64,000 bases of DNA from Cloeon dipterum (taxonomy: Eukaryota; Arthropoda; Insecta; Ephemeroptera; Baetidae): positions 34,837,883-34,901,882 of the forward strand of contig NC_088789.1 in assembly GCF_949628265.1 (NCBI RefSeq), written 5' to 3'. Shown piece after piece: positions 5,452-46,100 of the stretch; position 1 is the stretch's first letter; the number at the start of each line of letters is the position of its first letter. The notes below the pieces were generated by a model. It searched no databases. It was not told where the DNA came from and saw only the letters and a list, made by a program, of their open reading frames with translations. Position numbers and translations under genes: made by a program.

Positions 5452-8400
5452 ATGGAAGAAATACTGAAAAAAGGTATTTAAATTATTTTTAATTAATAGA
5501 AAACTATACAAGTGGGTGCATGGGACTCTCAAACTTTGACATAAACCATATTCAATATTAAAAAACACGTGAATTATTTCAAGGTGAAGAAGGTAGTCCC
5601 ATCGGACAGGCAAACCTAGGGTTCTTTAAAACGGACGGCCAGATAATCAATGCAAACAAGTAAAAATAAACCATGCAAACTAAAACTTTGATATTGACTA
5701 TACCCTTTTTTCAAAGCGTCTTTGTACTAGTCGTCCACTATGATTTTGAGAACCAACAAAGAGCTCGAAAAGGGAATTATCGTTACGTGCAGAACCTGAA
5801 GACATCTTTCGGGAAAAACAGGAATTGCAACTTTCGTGATCTGAAGTCACCGAAAAAAGAGCATCTGCTCGATATTCTTGGCGATCAGGATAAGCTGCTA
5901 CGGTTTTTCTCCTCGAAAGGTTGGCGCTGAAGCTTGTGAAAATAGTGGTTTTGACTGAATTTGTTAAATCTGTAGATCCCCCAGACGTATTTCTTCTCTT
6001 TGTGCTTTCTCATGGATATGAAGATGGCATCATTCATACCGACCACTTGCTCAACGATCAGAAAACGCTCGATCATTTCACGACGGATGAAATGTTTGAC
6101 TCGATTAAAAAGTTGACTAAGTTCGAAAAGAGCCTCAAACTGATCAATATTGGCGTAGGATCCAAACTTATTTGTATGGTAGAGAATTGATTAAAAATTA
6201 CTCTGATTTCTAGCCATGTCGTGGATTATTGGCCGACTCCAAGTTCAGCAGTAATGAGGACGAGCGTGAAGAAACGTACACAAACCGTAACTCTTGCAAA
6301 ATCACATTCATTCCCGCAATTCACAATTTGGTGGTGTTCTACTCTACTGTCGAAAGTATGATTTGACAATATTTAAATATTAACTAAATTTTAAAATTTC
6401 ATCCACTTATAAAGCAACGAAAGCAAACACAAGTGAACGTGGGTCATGGTTTGTAGAAAAATACTGCGACTGTTTGAATCAGACTGAGGAAAAGCCGTTG
6501 TTGACTTTCCTCTCGATGATGCAGAAAATCGTGCACATTGCGTCGCGCACAATGACAAATTTAAAAACAGGCGATTCCCTGGGTCAGACGCCAGAAGTAA
6601 AGATGTTCACTCAAGACCGAGAATTCTTCATTTCAAAGTAAAGTGCTGTTAGTTTCATTTAATTTATATTTTTATTGGTTCACTTTCAGGACAATGATTG
6701 ATCCAGTAACATATCAAAGCACAGATGGAGAGATGGTGAAACCAGGGTCAAATACGACGAATTCTGAAACTTTCGCATGGAAGACTGATGAAGGACAGAA
6801 TATAAGAGGTCGAAACGCATTCATTTTGTTTGAGCAACATGGTACACTAGTGCAAGAACTGGTGAAGTCTGTTCGAAACTTGGAATTTGATACAAGATCG
6901 TTTCAACTAAACAAACGCTCGTTAGACTCGTACTTAAAAATCTGTGAGCTTCCCATATTTAATTGATATTGGAAAAGAATACATACGAATTTCCCAGGTT
7001 GCGAGTTAGAACACGACGTCGGCTGCATATTGACATGCATATTCGGCGAATTGACTGAAAACGACGCAAAGGAAGTTTGCATTCTCGTTGACCAAAAAGA
7101 AATGCCAATCACAGATATTCTGCATAGCTTTGTCGGTCCAAAAAACGCCCAGTGGATCGGAAAGCCAAAAATAATTGTTCTAATTAACCAAGAGGCCTTG
7201 GAATGTGATGCAGTAAGTCATTACTCCTATTATTATTATGATGTAAGTTTCTTTAATTGAGCTTTTCTCATAGCATTTGCCAGAAAAAATGCTAAAATTA
7301 GATATATCGGCTACAAATCACAGTGGCTGGCTGGTTCTGATTTTAAAGGATAATGGTAACTATAGTATAAAAAAATGTTGATTATTAAAGCTTAATAATG
7401 ATGTGTTCTATAGAATTCTTAGAAAAATTGATCGGGATCTTCAAATGCGAGGATCTCAAAAATGGGAAAAGCCTTCAAGAACTTTTGTATCCTTTGCTGA
7501 TTACCGAGTCAAAGAAGAACACTGTTTTGCTCAACTCAACGCTGCAATACCTTCTCGACTTCCCCGTCTGGCCACGCACTTTCGTCAGTCAAAGTTTCAG
7601 TTTAAGGGTTAATGATAGCTCGACGGTCAATATCATAGAATTTGATGAGATAGTTAAAGAAGCGAAAAAGTCCTTTGAAAAGGGTCAAGTTTGGCTCATG
7701 AGTTCCGTTGCCGGTGCCGGAAAAACGACAGTTCTTAAAGAAATTACATACCAGCTCGGAAAATCCAACCCCGACTTAAAAATTTTGTATATCTCGCTTA
7801 AGAAACACTCGTTTACCATTTGGAAAATTTCCAGACTGAATCAGTTCCTTGCAAAGGCAACAAATCATTCCACAGACGATATAAAACTGTGGATTGAAGA
7901 GAAAAGAGCTGTTGTTTTCTTTGACGGATTTGATGAAATCTGTCCTGATCTTTGTGAAAACGTTATCACATTTTTCCATACTTTGAAAGAACAGCAAGTT
8001 CCCATGTTTATCGCAACAAGACCCCACGAGGCTGAAATAATACAGGAACGAATAAATTGCGAAGTACTCTTAGGAGTTGATCCTCTGAACGAAGAAAAGC
8101 AAATCGAATTTTTGAAGATTGTAGCAGGAAAGAACGAAAAAGAATGCAAGCAGTTTATACAAGATTTTGAGGAAAAGGATATCCTGGAGAATCCATTGCA
8201 CCTCTCATTGATAGCCTCTAGCAAAAGCGAAGGAAACTTGTATCAAATTTACGCGAAGGTTGTTGAAACGAAACTTGAACTCTGTTTAGTGAGGGATGGA
8301 TTCGACATTAATAACAAGGGCATTTTCAGTTTAAAGATGCATATGGCTTCGAATCATCTTCAACTGATTGCTTTGCGCTTCCTGAGGAATGAAAGCCTGA

Positions 8401-11400
8401 TTGGACTGGGAATAAGAGAGGGAGACTTAGAAAAGATTAACGATTACGGCGTCGCGACTGTTCTAGACGGGGAAGTTTCGTTTTTGCATCAGACGTTTGC
8501 TGAATTCCTGGCCACAAAACAATTCTTGGAAAATTTTGATTCGTCACAAGCATTGGATTCAGTGCTATTTCAAGATAGTACTTCTGCACAGTGCAGAAAG
8601 TTTTTGGACCTATTCTACTGCATCCTGGAAAAAGAGGAAGCAGAAGATTTGATAGATCACACGGAAGCTCTTTTAGCTATCGCCAAATCTATTGGTCCTG
8701 TAATTTTCTTGGAAAAGGTTATTGAAGATAACCTAAGACAGGTTTTCAGAATGGTGAAGCCCCGGATTTCGTTTCACGCGGATTCAAATGCTTCCATTTG
8801 CATAGAAACAAGCCCGGAACTGTTGATGAGAGCAATCGGCAAAGAAGAAATCGCCATTCAACTACTGGAAATGGGAGTTCTTGATAAAACAGGCTTGGAA
8901 CAAAATTTGCCTGATTTGCTGCGTAAAATTGAAGAGAATAATGCAGTTAACATCCTGGAGAAATTGAGATTGGAATTTTCAGATCTGCAAGGTATGATTG
9001 GTGCTTACTACTCCAAGGATACAGAAACGAGCAAAAGATCGATGAAAGTAGGATTTGCAGCAATTCGGAATGATTTTGCAAAACTTCTGGAAATCCTTAT
9101 TCAGAGTGGAATTCGTGCTGTTGATGCATTTGAAGAGGAAGAAAACAGTCTCTTTACGGCTTGTAAACATGGAAGTGTCAAGTGCTTTAGAGTTCTGCTC
9201 AAACACGGAGCCCGAAGGGTATATTACGCTAGTACCCAACATGATCCTTTGAACGTGGCCACAGAATTTGGTCACCTGGATCTGGTTAAGGTCCTTTTGG
9301 AAGAAAATTCCAGCATATTCAAGCGAGACGAATCTACATTGGTTCTCGATGGGCTGCAAGATATTTGGAATCCTTTCCAATATGCAATCATGTACGGACG
9401 CAAAGATATAGCCGAGTATTTGCTCTCAAAGTGCCCAACTTCGAATGATATTAGGACAAAAGACGGAAAAACTCTTATGCACTTGGCAGTTCTTATGAGG
9501 AAGTGGGAAGTACTCGAATGGCTTGCTCAGTTACCAGACACCGATATCAATTATTTGAACCCGGACACAGGTAGAAAATTTTGGACGCAATTTGAGCTTG
9601 AAAATTACGAGCACTTCTTGATGCTTCAAGGCGAAGTCAAAGAAAAGGATGAAAAGGGGAGAAGTGTCCTTCATTACGCTGCAAAATATGGTTATACAGA
9701 TCTTGTTGCGAAGTTCATTAAAGCCGGTGCTGACATTGATGCCAAGGACGCAAAAGGCTGGAACGCATTACACTATGCTTGTCTTGTAGACAAAAATATT
9801 GAAACAATTAAACTACTACATTCACGGAGCAAACACCTCGCAAAGACAATCACAAAAGAAGGACAAACAGCTTTGCATATTATGGTGGAATATTGTGATC
9901 AACATGATTTTGGAAGAGCTATTTCAAGGAATGTAGATATTGCAAGATTTTTGGTTGAGGACGCTGAAATTAATTTAAGTGTGACGGATGACCAAAGGAA
10001 GAACGCTGCAAGAATTGCTGTGGAGAGAGGACTAGAAAAATCATTAACCATGTATCTAAGAGCACAATACATTAATCCCTCAGCCAAGAACGACTTGAAG
10101 AAATCACCGGTATCTTTATATTTATCAGCAGCTGGTGAATTAGTGTCCCTGCAGCAGTGGATTCAACAAGGTGGAGATTTATCAATGAGAGATGAATGTG
10201 GACGTACGGCATTGCAATTAACAGAAGAGATAGGAAAGTTTAGATTGTTTCAAAAGAAGACTGGACTCAATGAACAATTTGAAGAACGGAACAGTGAGGG
10301 CTCGCTTTTGCTAGCCTGTATACAAAAGAATTGGGGTAAGGCTAAAAATTTGCTCAGTACGAAGAATTTGAGCATCAACCGGCAAGACAAAGATGGAAAA
10401 ACAGCTCTTCACTATGCTGCAGAAGAAGGAAATTTGGGTATAGCTCAGCAGTTACTTAGTCAAAGAGCTAATGTCCTATTGAAAGATCATAATGGATGGA
10501 CAGCACTGCATTACGCCATTCTAACGAATAATCAAGTTTTGGTTCAAAAGCTGATTGAGAGTGGTGCTGATATTGATTCGAAAACTAAGAGGGGAGAGAC
10601 AGCTCTGCACCTCACAGCCTACAAGGGCTATACAGAATTAACGCAAAAATTGATAGACTGCGGCGCGAATGTTAATTTAAAGAACAATCATGGTTTGACA
10701 TGTTTAAACTTCGCCACAGTTAATAGAGATCAGGATTTGTTAAAAATTCTCCTGAAAAATAATGCTCACGTAAACGCTGAATCTCAGTTTTTTGGACAAA
10801 CCGCTCTGCACCATGCAGCAATACAAAATTATCCAGAAATTTTGGAAATGCTGGTCGATCACGATGCCGATGTAAATTTAAAAGATAAAAAAGGATGGAC
10901 AGCTCTACATATAGCTGCACTTTATTATCCAGAACTGAGTCAAAAGCTGCTAGACCATGGTGCTGATGTAAATTCAAAAGAATTAGAAGGATGGACTTCT
11001 CTGCACATTGCAGCAAGGTATAATCCAGAACTGTGTCAAAAGCTGCTTGACCATGGTGCTGATGTGAATTTGAAGACAAAATTTGGATGGACAGCTTTGC
11101 ACTTTGCTTCGAGATATAATACAAAATTGTTACAAAAGCTTCTCTACTACGGTGCTAATATGAATGTCAAAGATAAAGATGGATGGACTCCTCTGCACTT
11201 AACTACAAGTTATAATCCAAAATCAGTTAATATGCTGCTTGACCACGGCGCTGATGTGGATTCAAAACTCCAAAATGGATGGACAGCGCTGCACCTGGCT
11301 ATAGATTTGAACCGTCCAGCATCAGTGCTAGAGCTTCTCGTCAAGGGCGCTGATGTTAATTTAAAAAATGTTGCTGGATGCACCGCGCTTCAACTTGCCA

Positions 11401-13529
11401 AAGCACAGAACAATCGAGCACTGGAAGATATGCTCCTCGACCAGAGTATTTGTAATGGTTTAAATTCTACGACGGCAACAATTGATGCTCTACAACTCGC
11501 CATCGCTTCAAATAATTTTAAAGTTGCTGAAGATCTTATTAATAATTACGGTGATTTGACTGTGCAGGACAAGAATGGAAAAAACATTTTACAACATGCT
11601 TTGAAGAACTTTGAAATGGTAAAATACCTGCACGAGAAAAACGGTGAATTGGTAAAGCAAGTGACAAATGATGGAAGCACTAACCTGCACCTTGCAATCG
11701 ACAACGATGATTGTCCCTTTGAAGTGATCCAATGGCTCATCGAAGAAATAAAAATCGATGTGGATGCAACGAATCAATTCGGTGAAACGGCATTCATGAT
11801 TGCTTGTAAAAGGAATCGAAGTGACGTCGTCGAATATTTGTTGGCAAATAAGGGCATCGACTTAAGCATAGAAGATAGAGGTGGGAGGACTGCGCTGCAC
11901 TATGCCGTCAGATCACTAAGTGTGGATTTGGTGCAGAAGCTTCTCGATCTTGGCGCAGATTTGACAAAAAAGGACAATGACAACAGAAATGTAATGTTCT
12001 ATGGATTGAAAAGTATGGATATGATTTTATGTCTAAAGAGGAAGAACATGGAATTTGTTTTGGAAGTGGATTGGAGACAAACCACTCTGCTTCTTTATGC
12101 GATCATAGATAGCATGATTAAGAGGGATGTGGTTAATTGGCTAATTGAGGAATCTGGAATCGATTTAAATGCCGCAGATATAGATGGCAATTCAGCTATT
12201 ATCTTTGCATGCAAGAAAAGAAAGTGGGATATTGTCGAAACTCTGTTGACGAAGGATGTGAATATCCAAGTTAAAGATGAAGGAGGCAAAAGTCTTCTCC
12301 ACCATGCTGCAGAGTCAGGAAACTTGGATTTGGTGCAGAAGCTGATCGAACTTGGTGTCAATCCGTCTTTGAAAGACAATCTCGGGAAGAATACATTGCA
12401 CTACGCATTGCAACACTTGGACGTTGTTAAAAGCTTGGACAGAGCACTGGTGAAGGAAGTGACCAAAGATAAAAACACCTCGTTGCACCTTGCAATCGGG
12501 ATGTATGAATATTCGATAGAAGTTATTCAATGGCTCTTAGATGAAGCTCAAGTAGACGTAAATGCTGTAAATGGAAATGGAGAGACTGCATTGATGACAG
12601 CTTGTTCAAAAAATAGATTTGAAGTCATCCGAATTCTTCTGGAGAAAAAAGCAGACGTCAGCATTCGGGACAACAATAGACGAACTGCTCTGCACCACGC
12701 CGCAAGATCGGGACACTTAGACTTAATTAAACTGCTGTTTGATCATATGACCATGAAGGAGGTCGAAGATGGCTCGTCGGACATCCAAGTGGCTCTCGTT
12801 GAGCATTTAAAACAAGTTGACAAGAAGGACAACACGTTGTTAATCTTGGCGATGAAAAGTAGCAAAAAGATAGACGAGAAGGTGATTAGTTGGTTGGTCG
12901 AGGGCATCAAATTAGATTTGAATGCAGTTAACAGCAATGGCGAATCAGCGCTTCTTCTTGCTTGCAAGCAAAGAAAATGGGACGCCGTCAATATTTTGCT
13001 GTCCAGAGAAGACACCGACATCGGTTCCAAAGATCAGACTGAAAGAACTCCATTGCACTGGGCCGCGGCGTCTGGAAACCTGGATGTAGTTCAGAGGCTG
13101 GTCGAGCGTGGCGCTGATTTGACTTTGAAGGACAGCGACGGAATGAACGTGATGCACCATGCCCTGAAAGACATTGAAACGGTCAAATTCCTTCACAATC
13201 TGAACAAAGGGCTTGTGACGGAAATTACAAAAAACGGAAGCACCTGTTTGCACCTGGCAGTCATTCGCGGCTCAACTGAAGCGATTCGTTGGCTCGTCGA
13301 TGAGGAAATCGAAGTTGATCTGGATAAAAGCAATGAGCTTGGATTGACCGCTCTTTTGCTTGCATGCCGCAGGAATATGTGGGAGGTCGTCGAGCTTCTG
13401 GTGGACAACAACGTGGACATCAGCAAACCAGACCGAGCGGGTAAAACTGCTCTAAAATACGCTGAAGAATCAGAACAATTTGAATTGATGGAAAAACTGT
13501 GTGTGTTGAGCGATACTGAAATGATTTGA
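5452..13529 (+). CDS. caspase / pseudocaspase / NACHT / ankyrin receptor, copy 1
   Basis: Predicted NLR-like receptor of 2503 residues, joined from ten exons: 5452-5473, 5584-5659, 5717-5919, 5976-6154, 6214-6355, 6415-6637, 6690-6943, 6998-7212, 7274-7355 and 7414-13529. All junctions are GT-AG (exon 3 uses the weak donor GTTGGC), phases agree, and the sum is a multiple of three. Residues ~34-280 form a caspase domain: S1-pocket Arg50, catalytic His113 in SHG, catalytic Cys162 in PCRG (usual QACRG), and p10 motif GSWF at 217-220. Residues ~320-530 form a second full caspase fold whose His and Cys positions are Phe382 and Glu432, so it should be inactive. A NACHT NTPase follows: Walker A GAGKT 566-570, Walker B FFDGFDE ~634-640, sensor TRP ~667-669, NPLHL ~725-729. 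More than 20 ankyrin repeats fill ~1030-2490. Likely a cytosolic sensor that couples ankyrin-bound ligand to NACHT assembly and caspase activation; this role is inferred. Exon ends are predictions. Confidence 0.85.
10893..11276 (+). repeat. four 96-bp ankyrin units in receptor gene 1
   Basis: Four head-to-tail units of exactly 96 bases, each coding a 32-residue ankyrin repeat of the form GWTxLHxAxxYNPxLxxKLLxHGADVN plus five variable residues. Canonical ankyrin repeats are 33 residues. A fifth unit starts at 11277 and returns to the longer form. The homologous array in receptor gene 2 has twelve units. Confidence 0.85.
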
Positions 13530-25975: not shown

Positions 25976-28900
25976 ATGGAAGATTTATTGAAAAAAGGTA
26001 TTTAGAAACACCCCTAGTAACCATCAAGGTTGATCAAGAGTCATTTGATTTGCTGTTGAAATTCAAGAAGGGTAAAAGTTGCTCATTTTGATGAAATTCT
26101 TTTTGGGAAGTTAAAATCTCGTTCATGGCTACCAAATTTGACAATTTTTGTTTTGGTCAGGTAACGGCAAGTGCGATTTTGAAGCATTCTTGAATTGGTC
26201 TTGAACTTCAACAATCATGATATTATGGTCTTTTTGAAAAAACTCATGTTTGGAAATTATTTAATGAGCTTCAAAATGACCGAATTCATTATCATTAACT
26301 AAGTTAAATGAAGTGCTTTGCTGATACTAGCACTCTTGACACGTCAAGACTGAATCAAATTTGATCAAGGTTGATTTAAAATAGAAGAAAAATTATTTTC
26401 AAGAAAATTTCTTAAAATCGTTGAAATTGCCCAAATCAAAAATTGGGGGAGAAGGGTTTGCTACCCCAATTTATTCAACTTATTCAAGTCTGATTCAGAT
26501 CTGCTTTAGGCTTGAATCAGTCTTGAAATATTTTTGCGATGTTAAATAATCTGTTCACGTGAGCAAAAAATCAAATGAAAACACATTTCCAATTAATTCG
26601 AGGTGAATTTAATTTTTCCGCGGACTTGTAAATTATTCCATCCTTGAGTGTGTGGACTTAGTGCCATCGCGCGCTCTCGCTTATTGCCTCGCGCGTTCGT
26701 CGCACTGTCGCCACTGTCGCTCGCGCTGCCAGCCAACGCAACAGCTGGTTTGGATTGCATCATCTTCATGTCTGGCGGCCGCGGATGTTTATCTCCTTTG
26801 TTTTAAGTGGTTTTTGTGACAGATCAACTGCATAACGGACCCTAAATCGGATGATGGATGTCGTACAAGGTAAGGGCTTTGATTTTACATGAATTTGGTC
26901 GCGGGGGTACGGGTAATACGCGCAGAGTTTGGTTTGTTTTGGTTTAGTACCAAAAAACACAAGCTCAAAAATTTCAATTTCTGTTTGTTTTTGTCGTTTT
27001 TATTAACTTAAACATTAAATAGGCGATGTAATTTTCCAATATCATTCGTTCTGGTGTTGCATCACGTCTCAAAAATTAGTTTTTGTCCATAATTTTGGCT
27101 AAAGAGTTCATTTTTAAGACACGTACATTTAATGTTTGTAGTTTTTACTCTTATTTGTGTCGGTTGTTTATTCATAATGAATTTTTGAAAAATGTATACA
27201 TGCATGATATAATTTGTTGTTATTGTTTTTCCGTTATAGGAGGAGCCTTTTTCCCAAGAGGAAAAGAAGAATCCTTTTTTGTTGCTGTTGCATCAGCGAT
27301 CTGTTTTCGGGCACCCAGATGGACGGCTGGAAAGAAAATTTTTGCTGTGCAGCCTTCAATAAGGTAATATATTTAATATTAAAATTAATTTTCCTTAACA
27401 GCGAACATCAGCCAGTTCCCAGAGTTCCAGATTTTAATCAAAATTTGGAACTTTTTGGACACTGGTTGACCAGCCAGTTCTTGACGTGTTTCTAATAGTT
27501 AAAACCAGATATTTTACTAGCTTAAATTTTCGGCTTTTCTTAGTTGGATGGATTTATGGCTATGATAAATTTTTTCCTGCAAAAACAGTGTTCAATTTAA
27601 AATTTTTTTAAGTTGGAAATAGCCTTTAATTTTTAAAATTTCAGGTGAAACTTTTTAACTTACCAGAATTTTAGCAATTAAGTTTCTAATAATAGCCGAT
27701 ATTTTTTTGCCAATTTAGCTGGTCAAAATCTGGATCTAACCGGCTTGCTAAAAATTAATTAAAAAAACCAACACTTTCGAAACTTGCTTTCGGAGTGTCA
27801 CAGGTCACAAGATCATTGAAAATTGATAGAATTGAGTGCATGAATCATAATATTCCATACTAATCGATACTGCATGTTTGGCCAACCGACTAAAGTTAAG
27901 TTTTTATTATTATTATTTCTATAATACCTCACAAACAATTTTGAAAATTATGTTACCACTTAGAAAAAACTATTTAATTTTTTCCCCTACTTAAGTGACA
28001 GGTTTCAGACCATTTCACATTTTAAAAAATGTTGATTATTTTATATAAAATATTAATTGATATTAGGATATCTCATCGGTCGATCAGCATTAAATTTTAA
28101 TTTTTCATTCTTATTCGAAAATTTTCTGATTGAATTAAATAATATTTAATATTTTTCAGTATGGTTTTAAATTATGACTGACTTAAATGAGACTTAAAAA
28201 CTCCTCTTGAGAAAACACCAACTTGTCCACAGTCTGGAGCCTGGACTATAAATTGAACAACTTTCCTGAAGACCCAAAAATGACAGGTTCATAAAATTAG
28301 TTCATTTGTTTTTAATTTTTTGAAATTGAATTCGAAATTAAAAAATAGAATCATTACAAATTTTTAATGTTGATTGTACCATCTTGTAGAGTTAGTATTT
28401 AATGTTTTAACGTACAATGAACTTTAATATTCTATCCTATATAATATTCCAAATATGAGATAAAGTTTTCGCAAATAAGTTAAAAAAATATAATTTTTTA
28501 TCAAATAATAATTACTTTTGAAGTATTTGTTAAAAAAAAACTTTTTCTTTCCCACAAAATATATTTCATATAGGGTGCCAGCATTTCAACCAGTTTCCTG
28601 CACTTCCGCATATTTAGAAATTTAACTTAATTTATAAGGAGTTTTCCTTTATCATGCTTTATCCCACATACATGTGTGAAAAAAAGAAAATAGCAGTTAT
28701 TTGTGAGAATGGAGGTCGATTGGACGCGATTTTTCAGCGTTGAAATTATTAGGTGGCAGTCATATTATTTGCTTAAAGTAATTGTTCTAATAGATGGTGA
28801 AATTCCAAATTTGAAGCTCGGGAATGGGGGCGTTCCCTATTTTTTCGGTACCTAAAAAATACCCGAAAAACTAATTCTGTAAATGAATTCTAAACTGCAA

Positions 28901-31900
28901 CTCTTGACTGCGTTGAGTTATCACCTTGAAATTTTCACTGCCCAACCTAGTTTTTGATCCTAAACAACTTTTGCCTTTACAAAAAATTCGCAGGTCAAAG
29001 GTCAAGGTCACCTTTTGCGACCTGTTTTTGAAAATTCAAAATTGAGAGATGATAGAACCTTTAGATTTTTTTGGGGTTCAGGGCTGAAATGTAGCCCGTG
29101 AAATTCTGCACAAGCACTACAAGTTTCATAGGTGCAATCGCGATAGTTTTTGCTGCAATTTGAATTTGAAGTTTGAAAAACTGCTCGAGGCCGCTTGACC
29201 GCGCATGCACTCTGAGCGGCGAGTGCGCCTCTTGTTCGTCAAGTTGTTTTCGCATTTCTCTTGCTTAGAAACAGCAAGAGGGCCTAGGGTAGACCAAGGA
29301 AGGTTGAAATCGACCTTTAGGATCTGTCCCTGACGTGACCCTGAGATACGAAATATCGAAAATTTCCAATTTCATCGAACTTGGTGTCTTTTTATAGGTT
29401 TTCACCACTGTACAGCTCAAATATTCAGCCAAAACTGCCGAATGACAATCCTGAAACCAGTTCTTGAAATAATTTTGGTAGCAATTAATCCAGACGTGAA
29501 TGAGTTAAAATGGTCAAAATTTTTTAGTCTTATATTTATGAAAATTACTTCAATTTTGCAAACATGAGGTTTATGATATGTGTTGATAATTAAGGATCTT
29601 ATGCTTAATACTATGAAAAAATGTTATTAAATGCACTGGCAAATACGCTAATTTTAAAAACTAAAAAATTTTGTTTCCTTACTTTTTATATTTTTTTAAA
29701 TATTTAATTTATTTGGTATTGCTCTAAATAAATTTTTTTAACTTATTAAAAAACGATAATTAAATTTTAACACTCAATATATGAACTTAATGTGTACGAA
29801 AAAGAAGAGTCTTATAATAAATTAAAGATTTCAAAATTTGACCATTTTTAACGTCTGGATTTATGGCTAATACTACAATTATTTCAACAACTGGTTTCAG
29901 GATTTACATTCGGCAGTTTTGGCTGTAAATTTGAGCTGTATAGTGGTGAAAACCTATAAAAAGACACCAAGTTCGATGAAATTGGAAATTTTCGAAATTT
30001 TTAATCTCAGGGTCACGTCAGGGACAGATCCTGAAGGTCGATTTCAACCTTCCTTGGTCTACCCTAGGCCCTCTTGCTGTTTTTAAGCAAGAGAAATGCG
30101 AAAAAAATCAACTTGACGAACGAGAGGCGAACTCGCCGCTCAGAGTGCATGCGCGGTCAAGCGGCCTCGAGCATGTTTTTTTCAAACTTCAAATTCGAAT
30201 TGCAGCAAAACTATCGCGATTGCACCTATGAAACTTGGTGTGCTTGTGCAGAATTTCACGGGCTACATTTCAGCCCTGAACCCCAAAAAAATCGTAGCGG
30301 GCTATCATCCCTTAATTTTGAATTTTCAAAAAAAGGTCGCAAAAGGTGACCTTGACCTTCCACCTGCGAATTTTTTGTGAATGCAAAAGTTGTTCAGGAT
30401 AAAAAACTAGGTTGGGCAGTGAAAATTTCAAGGTGATAACTCAACGCAGTCAAGAGTTGCAGTTTAGAATTCATTAACACAATTCGTTTTTCGGGAATTT
30501 CTAGATACCGAAAAAATAGGGAACGCCCCCATTCCCGAGCTTCAAATTTGGAATTTCACCATCTTTTAGAACAAGCACTTAAGCACTTTAAGCAAATAAT
30601 ATGACTGCCACCTAAAAATTTCAACGCTGTAAAATCGCGTCCAATCGACCTCCAATATCACAAAACTGCTTAATTGAATTTTAATTAATTTTTTAACAGG
30701 TCTGATGTAACTACAACTAGAGATAAATAATTTAACAAGGGACGTTCACCGGGCAGCTAGATCTACTACTTGGCCAGATTTAACAAGCAGGACAGCACGT
30801 CATGGGTAAGTGTTTCACAGTAAAAATTGTAATAATTTTGCAATTTTAAGATTGAAATATAATTTAGATGGTTAAAATGTTTTATCTCCACAGTACCAAG
30901 TGCATGCTGAGACACAAGGGCACTGCACGACACTACGAGTTGCAGCCGAAGCCAATACAGATGTTTCTGCGCGGTCTGCTCGTCTTCCGAACAAGAATGC
31001 AGAAGCGAGGCCAGGAAAGGCCAGAAAGAAAAAGAACGTTCACCAGTTATGTAAGCCCTTGGTGTTCTAAGCAGCCAGTTGGACATTGCACAGTAGTAGG
31101 ACTTGAGTCTCAAGTCAAAGCATAATTAAAGCATTTAAAAAAAACATGCTGGAGCAATCCTCTCTCTGGTGGCTTTGAACACCAAGGGCATCTGCAAATG
31201 GTGAATTTTCGCTTCCCAATTTTGTCAAATTGTTCAGTTCAAATTTAAGAAATTTATAAGGTACACTGTACAGCAGCAGTTTCAGCCTTCCTTCTCAACA
31301 TGTATACTTCACCTCTAAAACACATTCAAATATACGCATTACCATATTGATTTGGGTAGCCGAAACAGCTGCTGCACTGTACTTGAACATAAAATCTTTT
31401 TATATTTCATAAATATTTTAATTATCACTACAAGATGAAATAATCCAGACTTAGTTTCCCACGCTAGAGCCATTCAGATTTAATTATATTTATGATTACA
31501 TCTCATCATTGTGTTTTTAATTTTGTTTTACTGTGAATTATTGTTAAAGAATTCACCAATTGCGAAAGATTAAGTGTTTGAAGCTGCAAACGGATCGCGC
31601 CACTGTCTAAAACCGTGTACTTCTGATATAAAGTTCTCAATCCTGCTGCTTATGCATTCTGCTCGTAAAATGAATTATTTGTAAGTGTTGAAACTCAAAA
31701 TAAGTCCAGCCAATCAACACAGGATCGCGAGAAACATATTTTGCCATGAAAAAGTCATTCCCGGCAATTCTGTTTGCGGCGATTGGCTGGGCTGAATTTT
31801 CTTTCAGCATACATCCAAAGAAATCTAAATAGCAGGATGCATATGATAGCAGGAATAATTCTAATAAGTGTTTTCAAATAAAAATTAACTGTTGGTGCCA

Positions 31901-34900
31901 TTTATTTACAGCTTAAAAACTATTTGTATGAGACTTTCGCAACTGTTAAAATTGTAGGGAACATTTTCAAGCTAATTACGCTTACTTGGTGTGATTTGAA
32001 GTATTGTAGCTATATACTTCTATTAATTTGGCAGATCTCAATTGACTAGTTGTATAAACCCGGTGTTCGAAGCCGTCAACGGATGGCGCAACCATAGACT
32101 TTCTTAAAACTTTAATTTTTAAGGCACATCCGTTGCGATTTCAGACTCAATCTAGCTACCGTGCATTCTTAATTAATTATGCTCACTTTTGATGTGCTGA
32201 AAACTCAAATCAGTCTAGCCGTTCGCCGTAGAAACGTTAAAAAACATTTTTTTGATTTCAAAAAATAGTTTTTCACGTTTCTACGGCGATTGGCTTAGCC
32301 GATTTTCGTTTTCAAAAGAAAGCATATATTTAATTAAGAACGCACGGTAGCTAGATTGAGTCTGAAATTGCAGCGGAAGTGCCTAAAAACTAATATTTAA
32401 GTCACTGGTTGCGCCACCAATAGGCGGCTTCGAACACTAACGGTTAATAAAATTGGTCAATAAAAAAGAAAACTGTGTATTTATAGTTAAAATGTATGTT
32501 ATGTTTTGAAATGAATAAAATATTAATTGAATTTTGAAAGAATAGAAGCAATGGATTTAATTTTGAAATTCAGCCTTGATTCTTTGTTGATTTGGTCTTG
32601 ACGTCAAGGAAAACAAACTTAAGTTAAAAACGTGATTAACCGAAAAACAATGCGAAAAAAGTGAAATACCCGCAAGGGGAATTTTTGGCTGACTTTGAAA
32701 TTCAAGATTGATTCAAGTCTGGATCAAAGAAAAAAAGGACCATTCCAGATATTGAATCAATCTTGACGTCAAACTTGAATCAGGTTTGACGCCCTTGAAT
32801 GTCAGCCTTGTTTCAATTTTGAATCAGCATTGAGTGGTTACTAGGGACACTTAGATTCTATATTATAAAAGAAAACTGTTTAAGCTGGTTGGAACTTTCC
32901 AATTATTGCAAATATCGTAAGAAATAATAAATAAACAGGACGTATTTTCAAGGTGAAGAAGAAGGTCGTCCCATCGGGCAGGCAAACCTAGGATTCTTTA
33001 AAACGGACGCCCAGATAAATAATGCAAACGAGTAAAAATATCAAATCAATACTTTATCTTAAAAATTGAGTGCCCTTTTGTTCAAAGCGTCTTTGTGCTT
33101 GTCGTCCACTACGATTTTGAGAACCAAGAAAAAGCTCGAAAGGGGGATTCTCTTGACGTGCAGAACCTGAAGTCATCGTTCGGAGAAAAAAGAAATTGCA
33201 ACTTTCGTGATCTTAAATCGCCGAAAAAAGAGCATCTGCTCGATTTACTTGGCGATCAGAATAAGCTGCTACGATTTTTCTCCTCGAAAGGTGAGCTCAG
33301 ACTATAAATAATGTATTATTTCTTACTTAGCATTTGTTTAACCTCTAGATACCCCAGACGTATTTCTTCTTTTTGTGCTTTCTCACGGATATGAAGGTGG
33401 TATCATTTATACCGACCTCTTGCACGAAGTTCAGAAAACGCTCGTTCATTTCACAACAGATGAAATCATTGACTCGATTAAAAAGTTGACCAAGTTCGAA
33501 AAAACCCTCAAACTGATTAATTTCGGCGTAGGTTCCAGACCTATTTATAGGTATAAAGTTGTTTAAAGGAAGAACTAAAATTTCCAGCCCTGCCGCGGGT
33601 TATTGGCCGACTCAAAGTTCAACAGGAATAAGTGTGAAAAGACCTACGAAAACCGAAACGCCTGCAGGATCACGTTCCCTCCAGCAATTCACAATTTGGT
33701 GGTGTTCTACTCAACTGTTGAAAGTATATGCTTCAAAATTTTTTAAACAATGAACCTAATTTTAAAATTTCATCCCTTACAAAGCAACGTTAGCGAACAC
33801 AAGTGAACGTGGGTCTTGGTTTGTGCAAAATTACTGCGACTGTTTGAATCAAACTAAGGAAAAGCCTTTGTTGACATTCCTGTCAATAGTGCAGAACAAG
33901 GTGCACTTTAAGTCGCGTGCCATGACCAATATGAAAACAGGAGAATCCCAGGGTCAGACGCCAGAAATAAAGATGTTTACTCAAGACCGAGAATTCTTCG
34001 TTTCAAGGTGGAGTTTGTAATGGTATTTTTAAATTAATTTTTATTTATAATGGTTCACTTTCAGGACACCGATTACTCCAGTGACATATTCAAGTACTGA
34101 TGGAAAAATGGTGAAGCCAGGGATAAAAGCGACGGACTCCAAATCATTCTCATGGACGTCTGAGGAAGAACAGAACGTTAGAGGTCGAAACGCGTTCATT
34201 TTGTTTGAGCAACATGATGCACAAATGCAAGAACTGGTTAAGTCTCTTCGCAACTTGGACTTCGAGACAAGATCGTTTCAACTGAACAAACTCTCTTTGG
34301 ACTCGTATTTAAAAATTTGTGAGTTTCCCAATTTTAGTTGATTTCGGAACTTACTTTGACACATTAATTTCTCAGGTACCGAGTTAGAACACGACGTCAG
34401 CTGCATTTTAACTTGCATGTTTGGAGAAGTGAGTGAAAACGACGCGAAGGAAGTTTGCATCCTTGTCAGCCAAGAGAAGATTCCGATCACAGATATTCTG
34501 CACAGCTTTGTCGGCCCGAAAAACGCAAAGTGGATCGGCAAACCAAAAATATTTGTTCTTATTAATCAAGAGACCTTTGAACATGACGTAGTAAGTCAAT
34601 ACGCATATTTTGAACGACCAAGTTTATTTTAATTTGGCTCTTTGCTTAGCATTTACCAGAAAGAAAGTTTGACATATTTGCTACGAATCATAGTGGCTGG
34701 CTGGTTCTGATATTAAAGGATAAAGGTAACTAAAGTGTATGCAAAAATTGCGGTTATGGTTTCTTAATAAAAACATATTCTATAGGATTCTTAGAAACGC
34801 TGATCGACATCTTCAAAAGCGATGATCTCAAAACAGGGAAAAGTCTTCAAGAACTTTTGTATCCTTTACTGATTACCGAGTCAAAGAAGAACAATGTTTT

Positions 34901-37900
34901 GCTCAACTCAACGCTGCAATACCTCCTCGACTTCCCTGACTGGCCACGCTCTTTCGTCAGGTTAAGTTTTAGTTTGAGGGGAAATGAAAATTCAACGGTC
35001 CATACCATCGAATTTGATGAGATGGTCGGAGAAGCGAAAAAATCCTTTGAAAAAGGTCAAGTTTGGCTCATGAGTTCCGTTGCCGGATCCGGAAAGACGA
35101 CAGTTCTTAAAGAAATCAATTACCAGCTCGGGAAATCAAACCCTGACTTGAAAATTTTGTATATCTCACTGAAGAAACACTCGATAATCATTTTGAAAAT
35201 TCCCAGAGTAGTTCAATTCCTTGCACATGCAACACATCATTCCACAGACGATATCAAATTGTGGATTGAACAGAAAAGAGCTGTGGTTTTCTTTGACGGA
35301 TTCGATGAAATCTGTCCTATTCTCAGAGAAAACGTTATCACATTGTTGCATGCTTTGAAAGAAAGGCAAGTTCCCATGTTTATCGCAACGAGACCTCACG
35401 AAGCTGAAGTAATCAAGGAACGAATAAATTGCGATGTATTTGTAGGCGTTGAACCTCTGAACGAAGATAAGCAAATCGAGTTCTTGAAGGTTGTTGCGGG
35501 AAAGAATGAAGAAGAATGCAAACAGTTCATAGGTGATTTTGAGGAGAAGGATATTCTGGAGAATCCGTTGCACCTTTCATTAATAGCCTCAAGCAAAAGC
35601 GAAGGAAATTTGTATCAAATTTTCGCAAAGGTTGTTGAAAAGAAACTTGAGTTCTGCTTAGTGAAGGACGGATACAACATTGAAGACAAGACAAATTTCC
35701 ACCTAAAGATGGCATTGGCTTCGAATCTTCTTCAACTGATTGCTTTACGCTTCCTGAGGAATGAGAGTCTGATTGGACACGGAATTAGTAAGGAAGATTT
35801 GGAAAAGATGAACGATTACGGTGTCGCGACTGTTCTGGATGGAGAAGTAACGTTTTTGCATCAGACCTTTGCTGAATTCCTGGCCACAAAGCAATTCTTG
35901 AAGGAATTTGATTCATCGCAAGCACTGGATTCAGCGCTATTCCAAGACGGTACTTCTGCGCAGTGCAGGAAGTTTTTGGACTTATTTTACTGTACTCAGG
36001 AAAAAGAGGAAACAGAAGATCTGAGAAATCACACGGAGGCTCTAGTAGCTGTCGCCAAATCAATTGGTCCTGTTATTTTCTTGAAGAGGGTTGTTGAAGA
36101 TAATCTAAGACAGGTTTTTAGAATGGTTAAGCCCCGAATTTCGTTTAACGCAGAACTTGATTCTTCAATTTGCATAGAAAAAAGCCCAGAACTGTTGATG
36201 AGTGCAATTGGCAATGATGAAATCGCTATTCAACTACTGGAAATGGGTGTTGTTGATACGACAGGATTGAAAAAAGTTCTGCCTGATTTGCTGCGGAAAA
36301 TTGAAGTGAATAATGCGATTATCATCCTGGAAAAATTGAGATTGGAATTTTCGGATCTTCCAAATTTGATTGTAGACTGCTACTCCACTGTTTCTGAAAC
36401 GTGCGAAAGGCTGAAGAAAGTAGGGTTTGCAGCAATTCGACAAGATTTTGACATACTTCTCGATATGCTCATCCAGATTGGAATACGTGCTGTTGATGCA
36501 TTTGAAGAAGAAGAAAACAGTCTCTTTACGGCGTGCAGATATGGAAGTGTCAAGTGCTTGAGAGTTCTGCTCAAACACGGAGCTCAAAAAATATTATATG
36601 CTAGTACCCAATATGATCCATTGAATGTGGCCACAGAATTTGATCATTTGGACATTGCTATTGTCCTTATGGAAGAAAAACCCAGCTTATTCAAGCGAGA
36701 CGAATCTACATTGGTTCTCGATGGTTTGCAGGATGTTTGGAATCCTTTTCAATATGCTGTGATGTACGGACGAAAAGAAATAGCCACCTATTTGCTATCA
36801 ATGTGCCCAGGTTTGATTGATATTGCAACGAAGGACGGAAAAAACCCTATGCACTTGGCAGTTATTATGAGAAAATGGGACGTTCTGGAATGGCTAGCAC
36901 AGTTACCAAACATCGATATCAAATCTTTGATCCCTGACAGAGAAATAAAATACTGGTCGCAATTCGAGCGTGAAAATCATGAGCACTTCTTGATGCTAAA
37001 AGGCGGAGTCAATGAAAAGGATAAAAAGGGGAGAACAGTCCTTCATTACGCTGCAAAATACGGTTATACAGATCTCGTTGCAAAGTTCATCGAGGCAGGT
37101 GCTGACATCGATGCTGAGGACATTGACGGCTGGAACGCATTACACTTTGCATGTCTCCATGACAAAAATATTGAAACAATTAATCTACTACATTCACGGA
37201 GTAAACACCTTGCTAGAAGAAAGACAAAAGAAGGAGAAACATCTCTTATTATTATGGCAAAATATTGCAACATAAATGATTTTGGAAGAGCTGCTACGAG
37301 AGATATAAGAATCGCGAGGTTTTTGGTTGAAGACGTTGGAGTCGATATAAAAGCCAGGGATGTCCATAAGTATAATGCTGCTGGAATAGCTGCCACCAGA
37401 GGACTAGAAAAATTATCCTTGTTGCTACGAGCAGATGAATGCATTTCTCTTCCATCCGAAAGTGACACTTACAATTCGTCGGTGTATTTTTCAATGTCAG
37501 AACCTGGAGATTTACAATCACTGCAGCAATGGATTCAACAAGGTGGAGATTTAACCCTGAGAGATGAATATGGACAAACGGCATTGCAATTAACAGAGAG
37601 GAAAGGAAAGTTTAGATTAACACATAAGAAAAGCAAACCTAAACTCAATGTAAAGTACGAAGAAAGAAACAGTGAGGTCTCGCTTTTACTTGCCTGTAAA
37701 CAAAAGAATTGGGATAAGGTTAAAAATTTGCTTGAATCCAAGAATTTGAGCATCAATAGGCAAGATAAAGATGGCAAAACAGCTCTACACTATGCCGCAA
37801 AAGAAGGAAATTTGGGTATCGTTCAACAGTTGCTTAGCCAAAGAGCTGATGTTCAATTAAAGGATCACAATGGATGGACAGCATTGCATTACGCCATTCT

Positions 37901-39461
37901 TACAAACAATCAAGATTTAGTACAAAAGCTGCTTGACAATGGTGCTGATATCGAATCAAAAACTAATAGGAAAGAGACCGCCCTGCACCTCACAGCATAC
38001 AAAAACTTTACAGGATTAACGCAAAAATTGATTGACTGTGGCGGGGACGTAAATTCAAAGAACGATCATGGTTTGACATGCGTTATCTTCGCCACAGTTA
38101 ATAGAAATCGAGATTTGTTGGAAGTACTGTTGAAAAATAATGCTAACGTAAACGCTAAAACCAGGTTTTTAGGATATACTGCTCTACAAATTGCAGTATT
38201 TGAAGACTATCCTGAAATTTTGGAAAAGTTAGTCGATTTCGGGGCAGATGTGAACTTAAAAAATGATGATGGATGGACTCCTCTGCACTTTGCTGCTAGG
38301 TATAAACCAGAACTGTGTCAAAAGCTGCTGGACCATGGTGCTGATGTAAATTCAATAGACCAAGATGGATGGACTCCTCTGCATTTTGCTGCCAGGTTTA
38401 ATCCACAAATATTTCAAACGCTTCTGGAACACGGTGCTGATGTGAATTTAAAAGAACGAGCTGGATGGACGGCTCTCCATTTTGCTGCAAGGTATAATCC
38501 AGATCTTTGTCCAACGCTGCTAGAACATGGAGCTGATGTCAATTTAAAAAACAATAATGGATGGACAGCTCTGCACTTTGCTGCAAGGTATAATCCAGAT
38601 CTTTGTTCAGAGCTGCTAGAACATGGAGCTGATGTCAATTTAAAAAACAATAATGGATGGACAGCTCTGCATTTTTCAGCAAGGTATAACCCAGAACTTT
38701 GTCAAAAGCTAATAACCCATGGAGCTGAAGTGGATTTAAGAGGACAAGATGAGTGGACCCCTCTGCACTATGCTGCATTATTTCATCCAGAACTGGTTCA
38801 ACAGTTGGTCGATCACGGCTCTGATGTGAATTTAAGAGAAAAAGATGGATGGACAGCTCTGCACTTTGCTTCGGTGCCCAATCCAGATCTGGTTCAAAAC
38901 TTGCTAGAGCATGGTGCTGATGTAAATTTAATACAACAAGTCGGATCCTTTCCCCCAATCTTCTCTGCAAGGCACAATCCAGAAGAGAGTCAAAATTTGA
39001 TTGATCACAGTGCTGATGGGAATACCAAAGATATATTTTGGTGTTCAGCTCGGCACTCTGATGCGAGATATGATCCAGAACTGAGTCAAAAGCTGATGGA
39101 CAATGGTGCTGATGTTAATTTAAAAATAATTAACGGCTGGACAGCTCTGCACTTAGCCGCATTATATAATCCAGAACTGGTTCCTAAGCTGCTAGACCAC
39201 GGTGCTGATGTTAATTCAAAAGACAAAGACGGAAGGACAGCTCTGCACTTTGCTGTAAGGTATAATCCAGAGCTGAGTCAAAAACTGCTAGACTATGGCG
39301 CTGATGTGAATTTAAAAACACAAGATGGATGTTCAGCTCTGCACTATGCTGAAAGGTATAACCCAGAATTATTGCAAACCCTGCTAGACCACGGCGTTGA
39401 TGCAGTTTCAAAATTACAAATCGAATGGAAAGCGCTGAACCTGGCAGATGACGTGCAATAA
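25976..39461 (+). CDS. caspase / pseudocaspase / NACHT / ankyrin receptor, copy 2
   Basis: Tandem paralogue of copy 1, 2020 residues from ten exons: 25976-25997, 32953-33031, 33088-33290, 33349-33527, 33588-33723, 33785-34007, 34065-34318, 34376-34590, 34650-34725 and 34786-39461. Exons 3, 4, 6, 7 and 8 have the same lengths as in copy 1. The others differ by whole codons (exon 10 apart), and the total is a multiple of three. Active-type caspase: His114 in SHG, Cys163 in PCRG, GSWF in p10. The second caspase fold again lacks both catalytic residues. NACHT: Walker A GSGKT at 563-567, Walker B FFDGFDE, TRP sensor. The ankyrin part contains a 12-unit 96-bp array and then ends at a TAA (39459-39461) by frameshift, so the last ~500 residues of copy 1 are absent. 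Intron 1 holds a 6.8-kb insertion and must be spliced across ~6.95 kb. Likely still functional in its first three domains; whether it is expressed cannot be told. Confidence 0.8.
28690..30675. repeat. large fold-back, two arms of about 0.8 kb
   Basis: The left arm (about 28690-29560) and right arm (about 29840-30675) are reverse complements over almost their full length. Easy anchors are 'ggaggtcgattggacgcga' with 'tcgcgtccaatcgacctcc', and 'gggaatgggggcgttccc' in both orientations. The loop is about 280 bases. A transcript would form a very long double-stranded hairpin. It is nested inside the 6.8-kb insertion. Confidence 0.8.
31050..31390. repeat. two small inverted repeats
   Basis: GCCCTTGGTGTTC near 31055 is reversed as GAACACCAAGGGC near 31178. 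'gtacactgtacagcagcag' near 31261 is reversed, with small changes, as 'agctgctgcactgtact' near 31370. Both are short hairpin elements inside the 6.8-kb insertion. Confidence 0.5.
32057..32455. repeat. hairpin element of about 400 bases
   Basis: The left end 'GTGTTCGAAGCCG' continues to 'ggcgcaacc' and is mirrored by 'ggttgcgcc..cggcttcgaacac' on the right. Inner blocks also pair, for example 'tagctaccgtgc' with 'gcacggtagcta' and 'cgccgtagaaacg' with 'cgtttctacggcg'. A related, less regular palindrome lies at about 31560-31860. No coding capacity. Confidence 0.65.
38271..39422 (+). repeat. twelve 96-bp ankyrin units in receptor gene 2
   Basis: The array is exactly 1152 bases, twelve units of 96, each coding 32 residues with the GWTALHFAARYNPxLxxxLLEHGADVN pattern. 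Neighbouring units are very alike; the third and fourth are nearly identical. Units eight and nine have lost the TALH core and look non-functional as ankyrin folds. The array is three times as long as in receptor gene 1. Confidence 0.85.
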
Positions 39462-43100: not shown

Positions 43101-46100
43101 GCATAGCTCAGCAGTGCTGAAAACGAGGAAAAAAATTATTACCCTGATATCAGGGTAAACCCTAAGAAAAGGTTAAGGTAAGTAGGGTATTTGATTTTCC
43201 TTGATTGAAATATTAACATTTAGCTGTTTAAATTAATAAAATACCCTTACTCAGGGTAAACCTGAAAAAAATCGCATTACAGACACCTACTTTTGAGCAC
43301 TCGTTCCGTGTCTCCGGCGGCCCAGACGATGGTCTGCAGCTGTCCAAAAATGCGGACGTCGTCGAGCTCGAGATGCTCGTAATTGTCCTTGGTGGTCACC
43401 TCGCGGAAGAGAACCTTCTCGTAGTCCTTGAACTTGTCGCTCACTTTGCAGAGGGAGCACCTGGATTTGCTCTTGGCTTGCTCGGAGACGATGGTGCGCA
43501 AGTGGCAATCGACGGCCTCGTTGACCAGCACCTGCGGATCCTGCACCTGCAACCTGTGCATCTCAGCCAACACACGTTTGTGCTCGTCCACCATCGCCTC
43601 GGTGGTTTTCAGGAGAGTTGCTTCCATGGTAACTAGATTTTTGAACCTGAATCAAGAGAACGGGTAATAAGGGCACTTTTAAAAATTTACCCTGAAATCA
43701 GGGTAAACTGCAAACCTTTGTAGGCAATGCAATATGAATCAAATAAATAATTACTTACTGCTGAATTTTTTTCTTCAGGTCCTTCGGTGTCTTTTTGGAC
43801 ACGCCTTCGATTGCCTGTCGGACGCGCTCGACTACCTCTTCCTCTTCATCAAGCGAGGCAACCAGGGTCAAAACAGAACTCCACCAGGCCTCGTCCAGCT
43901 CCAGTCCTTCCTCCAGCTGGCCCACCTTGGCCGAAAGCGGCTCCAGGGCCTGCTTCGCGTTCTCCACCTGACCAAATGTTTGTACCGTTAATTATTAATC
44001 CTTTAAGAGATTAGTTACCAGGGTGATGAATTTAGCGAGGTACTCAGTCTCCAAAGACTTGGCGTCGGTGGCCAGGTCGCGTTCGCTTTCCGTACGGACG
44101 ACGTTGTCCCTTTCGGCGTCCAACACATCCTGAAGGTTGCACAGCGTGTGGATTCGCTGCAGTTTGTCAGACTTGATTTGCTCTTTATTTTCCTCGACGA
44201 GGCTCAAAACTTCGCGGTAGTGCTGTGCCGCCTGTTTCCAGTGACCCTGGATCAGTTCCAAGCCCGCGATACCTGAAATTTGATAGATCGGTCGAAAGGT
44301 TGTTTTCAAAATGAAGGATAAAAGCTTAAGGGAGTTAAAAATAGACAGATTCTCTTAAAAAATCATCGATAAAAGTTTAAAAGATTTTACCCTGAGTTCA
44401 GGGTACCCTTATATTCCCTGTAAAATGAGTTAAAATCATCGATATTAACAATTAAATTTAGCTTTATCATTGAAATGTTGATTTTTAAATACATATAGAT
44501 CGAATGAGAGAACCCTGAGATCAGGGTACAATTAAAATATTTGTTCAATAAGAGAAAATCAACGACATCTTTAAATTATACAAGCTATGATAGTAATTAT
44601 TTATTTTAAACTAAATTAGGATCAAATGAGGAGACCCTGAGATCAGGGAAGCCCATAAAATTAATAGAATTTGTGACAAAACGCTTTGAAAATCATGAAA
44701 TATACCCTGATCAGGTATTTCAAGCTAACTATCTTACCATTGAGCGAGGAGATGATGACACGGAGCGACTCCTCACACTCGGACCTGGCCCTGTTGATCA
44801 GGTTGGTGAGCAGCTCCTTCATGGTGATGGTCCGATTGACGTTTTTATTCGTGGCAATGGAGCTGCGTCCGGTGACGGCCTGCGGGTGGCAGCACGCCTG
44901 CCGCAGGTGCAGCAGCGGCCGTAGGAGCTTGTCCAGCGCCTCCTTGTCCAGGGTCTGCAGACGAACCTCCAGGGTGGAGTGCTGCGCGAGCCGCTCCAAC
45001 ACCGCGTTGGCGCACTCGACGTGCTGCCGGCGGTAAAAGTGCTCCTCGACAGGCGAGAAGTTGACCCAATGCACCTGCTCGGTCTGCGGCGGCAGCTGGA
45101 TCTGCTCGAGCACGTCCACCTTCAGGGTGCGCCACATCAGCGGGCAGATCAGTCGGCACAGCGGCTCAGGGTCGCCGGCAAGGAAGGGACCTTGCACCAG
45201 CACCTGCCACCACTTGTCCACGCAGTACGGGTCCACGCCAAGGAAGAGAACCAGGCCGAATAGATCTGAAAGAGGGATGGTATTTTCAGGGTAGGGCAGC
45301 GCAGTGGTAAGAAGGACATTTTGAGCATGCGCAGAGTGACTTTTGTGAATTATTAGAGGGAGTTTTACTTCCGTAAAGCCACTGCACAGGTAGAACTAGG
45401 CCGAATAGATTTAAAAGAAGGGTGGCAATGTCAGGGTAGGGCTGCGCAGTAGTCTGAGAGGACTTTTGAGCATGCGCAGAATCGCTTTTTGGAAGGATCA
45501 AGGTAAGGATGACTCAGGTAAGGCCACTGCGCAGGTTTTAAATGCACTTACGTGTACTGCGCATGCTCTGAATGCAAATTTTTACAACAGAAATGGCACT
45601 AACCTTGAAGGGAGTGCTGGACAGGGGTGCCAGTGATGCACCAGCGGTGGACGGCGGTGAGTCTGAGGGCCATCTCGGCCGATTTGGTGGTGGTGCACTC
45701 GACCATCTGGGCTTCGTCGAGGCACACTCGCCACCAGTGAACGCAGACGAGCGGCGACGGCAGCGCCGAGTAGCGCTTGGCGTTGCGGAAACGCCTACCG
45801 CCGGCCGCGTTGCAGTGTGGCAGGTCGACGTAGTCTAACTCTTTGTTCAACACCTCGTACGAGGTCACCAACACGTCGTATTTGGCCAGGGAACTCGGCT
45901 GATGGTACCCATCCATGTACACTCCACTGAAAGGTTCATAATTTTGCATTTGACATAAGATTTATTAGAGAAAATCATTATTTAATGTGTGAAATATCAT
46001 CACCTGAACTCAGGGTACCATTAATATCCCTGTCACACGAGAAAACATTGAAATAATAAAATTAACACATGCTTTATCGTTACGTTGATGATTTTCAACA

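Follow-up and report, generated by a model that had tools for sequence, protein, structure and literature searches.

A mayfly family of NLR-like genes in which a caspase and a catalytically dead second caspase fold precede NACHT and ankyrin repeats

The stretch of DNA analysed here, referred to as the window, comprises 64,000 nucleotides of the mayfly Cloeon dipterum (C4:34837883-34901882, from a genome of 190 Mb in 10 contigs). It carries two tandem copies, A and B, of an NLR-like gene. An earlier sequence-only reading had described copy A as an active-type caspase fused directly to a NACHT-ankyrin receptor, and this fusion is borne out by splicing, by Pfam and by the NCBI model of the locus. 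The features, all on the forward (+) strand, are as follows, with counts referring to rows of the family alignment that have a letter at the position.

5452..13529 (+): copy A, whole gene; 10 exons, 2,503 amino acids (aa), in the order caspase, pseudo-caspase, NACHT, ankyrin
5452..5659 (+): exons 1-2 (5452-5473, 5584-5659), coding for an N-terminus without a recognised adaptor domain
5717..6637 (+): caspase domain 1, active-type, p20 and p10; exons 3-6, aa ~33-282
6011..6013 (+): catalytic His113, SHG motif, exon 4; His in 59/59 rows
6217..6219 (+): catalytic Cys162, PCRG motif, exon 5; Cys in 59/60 rows
6796..7565 (+): pseudo-caspase domain 2; exons 7-9 and start of exon 10, aa ~318-516
7707..8114 (+): NACHT domain, aa 564-699; Walker A AGAGKTT, Walker B FFDGFDE
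9060..13526 (+): ankyrin repeats, called by Pfam on aa 1-1171 and beyond that by eye and from the tandem array
32953..39461 (+): copy B, tandem paralogue; 2,012 aa from the 9 exons located, ordered as in copy A

Scripted splicing of copy A joins exons 5452-5473, 5584-5659, 5717-5919, 5976-6154, 6214-6355, 6415-6637, 6690-6943, 6998-7212, 7274-7355, and 7414-13529 across nine introns, all GT-AG, into a single 2,503-aa frame whose one stop is terminal. The protein length given by the sequence-only reading is reproduced, but nine short exons precede the NACHT exon where that reading had counted eight. The NCBI protein for the locus (P0001, uncharacterized LOC135941815) matches our translation at every residue from Met140 onwards (aa 140-2503), so an independent annotation joins exons 4-10 in the same way. 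The paralogue model P0002 has the N-terminal part, and its first residues (MEEILK) are nearly those of copy A. Copy B shows the matching exon order claimed for the two tandem copies, although its first exon was not found in the splicing reconstruction; its big exon gives NACHT and ankyrins in Pfam. Retention of intron 6 would bring an immediate stop into the copy A frame (AA|G TAA at the donor, 6638-6641), and a caspase-only isoform produced in this way is conceivable. The identity with P0001, the presence of the same domains in relatives from two species, and the excess of synonymous (dS) over nonsynonymous (dN) change between the copies together establish that the gene structure and domain order of copy A are not the product of chance. 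A prokaryotic or symbiont origin is rejected on the strength of the introns and the animal-type caspase matches.

Exons 3-6 encode a caspase fold with both p20 and p10 parts, matched by Peptidase_C14 at aa 37-275 (E 1.1e-15, 58.4 bits against a cut-off of 21.4). The Pfam scan, run on aa 1-1171, matched Peptidase_C14, NACHT and ankyrins as the sequence-only reading had anticipated, and the SHG, PCRG, and GSWF motifs it named lie in exons 4, 5, and 6, respectively. The closest matches of this domain are caspase-3 by sequence and CED-3 and caspases 3-9 by Foldseek. The catalytic His and Cys occur together in 57 of the 58 rows with letters at both positions. P0029, which has Ser in place of the catalytic Cys, stands alone in this among 60 rows and is possibly a dead or decoy member. 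When unspliced genomic DNA is read by pattern, SHG and either PCRG or SCRG appear in all 20 sampled loci with domain 1; the codon ahead of PCRG in this reading is the splice-acceptor CAG (TAG in copy A and L027) and represents no residue. The term active-type applies to the His/Cys dyad only, and proteolysis itself is predicted.

The sequence-only reading assigned the short exons as a whole to the caspase, which holds for exons 3-6. Exons 7-9, together with roughly the first 50 codons of exon 10, instead encode a second caspase fold that is catalytically dead, the His and the Cys being absent from the aligned positions in every row (0/67 each). What is fused to NACHT is consequently a caspase and pseudo-caspase pair, the second member of which had been missed. 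Since the whole-protein structure comparison covered mainly residues 27-286, domain 2 was folded alone. Searched against PDB by phmmer, it finds caspase-8 at E 0.083; compared with FLIP and with caspases 6-9, the rows are tied and FLIP is no closer. The tandem death effector domains (DED) of the FLIP family are missing, and no DED was reported in the Pfam scans. Domain 2 would therefore be FLIP-like in its proposed role only, and descent from FLIP is not claimed. An interpretation of domain 2 as a mere linker has been considered and rejected. In P0044, a Cys lies two positions ahead of the aligned catalytic position of this domain.

The NACHT domain, with both Walker motifs, places the protein among the NACHT-STAND (NLR) proteins. 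The A1 profile searched against PDB returns only ankyrin proteins among its best 60 matches. Within the ankyrin region, tandem 96-bp units are present in 4.5 copies in copy A (10865-11294) and in 12 copies in copy B (38247-39402). In fungal NLRs, tandem repeats that are similar to one another give rise to new specificities, and the 96-bp units are a possible source of rapid sensor change. In agreement with the sequence-only reading, no CARD, PYD, or DED was reported in copy A aa 1-1171 (Pfam, up to E 10) or in five relatives (up to E 1), in scans whose HMMER filters remove most matches above E about 0.1. The protein thus lacks the N-terminal CARD, PYD, or death-fold adaptor of bona fide animal NLRs, and it has ankyrins in place of the C-terminal leucine-rich repeats (LRRs) that the accessible text of PMC12909245 requires of them.

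Between copies A and B, dS exceeds dN in all seven blocks compared, which run from aa 33 to the end and leave exons 1-2 outside. Omega is 0.26 for domain 1 and reaches its lowest value, 0.18, in domain 2, while the ankyrin part changes faster.

The two copies belong to a large family. The Cloeon dipterum genome contains 101 NACHT matches, 80 of which fall on two contigs. Upstream DNA was examined for 21 of them, a non-random sample consisting of the 20 highest-scoring matches plus the final one in the list, and in 20 of the 21 domain 1 and then domain 2 lie upstream of NACHT on the same strand (tblastn). The exception, L009 (C1:9155645-9156121), is the best NACHT match of the genome; it has neither caspase domain upstream and is taken as another kind of NACHT gene. 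A genome search with PF00656 yielded 36 exon matches, nine of them within 4 kb of a NACHT match. The other 27 are presumed to be ordinary caspases, with motifs seen in L030-L033.

At the protein level, both C14 and NACHT labels were counted by hand in 40 of 61 matches; the 21 without one or both labels include short models and some matches below the cut-off. Among 5.8 billion proteins, searched three times, the caspase-NACHT order came up in Cloeon dipterum and Neocloeon triangulifer only; the other matches of one search (P0077-P0087) carry ankyrin labels and no C14. These searches require shared 5-letter words, and two of them were limited in scoring to the ~8,000 candidates with the most such words in common, so the order may also occur in other mayflies or insects. 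In the family tree (62 rows, midpoint root; 14 of 76 proteins, including four from Neocloeon, were excluded by length), at least three changes between Cloeon and Neocloeon are required by well-supported branches, and 48 of the 62 rows form one Cloeon-only clade. From these branches, several lineages of the family seem to predate the split between the two genera, one of them having later expanded in Cloeon. The tree tool flags one long-branch join, that of P0061 with P0058 and P0060. Nine members (P0014, P0015, P0016, P0018, P0019, P0022, P0026, P0029, and P0037) have an extra N-terminal block of ~110 aa before the caspase (NYFAYCLD...NYFIVPS...), and the piece from P0018 matches no Pfam family. 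In the Cloeon model P0053, a leucine-rich-looking and cysteine-rich N-terminus is joined to the caspase part, which may reflect a merged gene model.

We propose, with a probability of roughly 55%, that copy A is a member of a large mayfly NLR-like (STAND) family that combines a caspase and a tethered pseudo-caspase with a NACHT switch and an ankyrin sensor, and that it works by the following mechanism, whose steps rest on the anatomy of the protein and on analogy with NLRC4 (for the NACHT fold) and with caspase-8/c-FLIP(L). The ankyrins would hold the protein closed and bind the ligand. The NACHT domain would then exchange nucleotide and assemble, as in NLRC4. Assembly would gather the caspase units, allowing each caspase domain to pair with its own or a neighbour's pseudo-caspase in the manner of caspase-8 and c-FLIP(L), a pair that, according to the available part of PMC7586951, contains a single active site and remains on the complex. 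The resulting heterodimer would be a protease with a single active site; by cleaving targets nearby or downstream, it would start cell death or defence without a CARD, PYD, or DED adaptor.

Several observations weigh against this proposal. The NCBI model P0001 starts at Met140 and so omits aa 1-139, including the catalytic His. Domain 2 alone has no C14 match in Pfam, where it finds only ParB-CE at 16.7 bits, below the cut-off of 23; the profiles of domains 1 and 2 are not significantly alike in hhalign (E 0.16, probability 0.4%); and when domain 2 is modelled by itself, the final 22 residues of the structure are of poor quality. The S1 pocket, which we take to be Arg/Gln/Arg at 179/283/341 in caspase-1 numbering, is incompletely kept in domain 1. 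Its first Arg is found in 52 of 57 rows, its Gln in none of 60 (Gly in 56), and its last Arg in only 33 of 62, with Thr in copies A and B and a loop of varying length at this position. These replacements make Asp specificity doubtful. By its residues, domain 1 is a C14 caspase-fold domain and does not qualify as a canonical Asp-specific caspase; the earlier label of active-type stands for the dyad and fails to extend to the pocket, where the Gln is replaced.

The alternatives to this mechanism concern chiefly the roles of the two caspase folds. Domain 2 could act as a lock instead of an activating partner, keeping the caspase closed until NACHT has assembled. Its position between caspase and NACHT and its omega, the lowest of the seven blocks, suit such a role, and c-FLIP can inhibit as well as activate in the portion of PMC7586951 at hand; none of the present data separates a lock from an activating partner, and we consider the lock unlikely. 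A similarly low probability is given to the idea that domain 1 is a scaffold or decoy and not a working protease, the protein serving to block other caspases. The S1 pocket speaks for this, with the Gln replaced in 60/60 rows, mostly by Gly, and a non-Arg residue at the last position in 29/62. Against it, domain 1 keeps the dyad (His 59/59, Cys 59/60) that domain 2 has lost in 67/67, its omega is 0.26, and its motifs recur in 20/20 sampled loci.

Somewhat less probable again is a role for the family outside defence, in developmental cell death, in recognition between individuals, or in symbiont control. Against such a role, the large clustered family (80/101 NACHT matches on two contigs), the Cloeon-only clade (48/62), the 96-bp ankyrin arrays, and the faster ankyrin change suggest the look of recognition genes. 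A wrong joining of a caspase gene to a NACHT-ankyrin gene, whether as neighbouring genes or as two transcripts, could draw on the stop created by intron 6 retention and on the 21/61 matches lacking a label, but it is very improbable: exon 10 starts at aa 466 and itself encodes the last pseudo-caspase helices (about aa 465-494), so that the gene cannot be split there without breaking a domain, P0001 joins exons 4-10 exactly and with them caspase exons 4-6 to NACHT, where a separate caspase gene would have told against the sequence-only reading, gene models from Neocloeon and from further Cloeon contigs of smaller size join the same domains, and the order is kept on one strand in 20/21 sampled loci.

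Two further features of the window lie outside these genes. Upstream of copy B (28700-30664), inverted-repeat arms of ~780 bases surround a 390-base centre; the arms consist of five pieces (294, 237, 94, 80, and 75 nt) that are 90-95% complementary, and the whole looks like a foldback or miniature inverted-repeat transposable element (MITE) type of element. On the reverse strand, 44664-45395 (-) holds an exon of an SHPRH-like gene with an SNF2-related domain (E 3.6e-20) and an SHPRH helical domain (E 2.8e-6).

Compared with known systems, the mayfly protein differs from NLRC4 and its kin, which recruit caspase-1 through CARD or PYD, in having the caspase in the same chain, ankyrins instead of LRRs, and a pseudo-caspase in between. 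Unlike caspase-8 and c-FLIP(L), its pair is fused into one chain with a NACHT-ankyrin receptor, and no death effector domains were found. An effector enzyme fused to a STAND switch is shared with prokaryotic STAND proteins bearing an N-terminal (meta)caspase and with fungal NLRs bearing enzymatic N-termini; the parallel with prokaryotes drawn by the sequence-only reading agrees with the bacterial all-in-one STAND proteins with metacaspases described in the accessible part of PMC4986451. What sets the mayfly proteins apart is that their protease is an animal-type caspase with a pseudo-caspase as partner and that their genes contain introns.

NLRs usually have no place in accounts of insect immunity. 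Among the literature matches listed, with supplements and most subscription journals outside reach, no published arthropod gene with the caspase-NACHT order was found, in line with the sequence-only reading. The main text of the Cloeon genome paper (PMC7250882) mentions NACHT, caspase, and NLR zero times, the gill paper (PMC11597413) has no mention of them, and a study of NLRs in shrimp (PMC12370184) deals with an LRR-bearing gene of the NLRC type, its main text making no mention of caspase. Outside arthropods, the sponge Dysidea avara may offer a precedent for an animal NLR that contains a caspase, the only such case found in animals; there, a figure legend in the available text of PMC12909245 gives a CASc (caspase) domain for NLRs; these sponge proteins are called bona fide NLRs and have LRRs, unlike the mayfly ankyrin proteins.

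On this comparison, the mayfly protein would resemble a one-chain inflammasome, set apart from bona fide animal NLRs by the LRR rule, from canonical Asp-specific caspases by its S1 pocket, and from FLIP by the absence of DED. More tentatively, and at somewhat less than even odds, baetid mayflies may run innate recognition on about a hundred such one-protein inflammasomes, a number extrapolated from 20/21 sampled loci among the 101 NACHT matches. Each would have its own sensor, switch, and protease with an obligate dead partner, and would need no adaptor or separate caspase. New specificities would arise from reshuffled 96-bp ankyrin units, and an all-in-one layout considered characteristic of prokaryotes and fungi would have been rebuilt in an animal from animal caspases. 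An insect family whose members carry their own caspase and pseudo-caspase would offer a one-chain system for studying the control of a caspase by a pseudo-caspase, in a species already proposed as a laboratory model (PMC6446309, in its accessible part). It would also provide an animal test of the idea, put forward in the available portion of PMC4986451, that STAND receptors of the all-in-one type are the ancestral form, to which adaptors were added later as a refinement.
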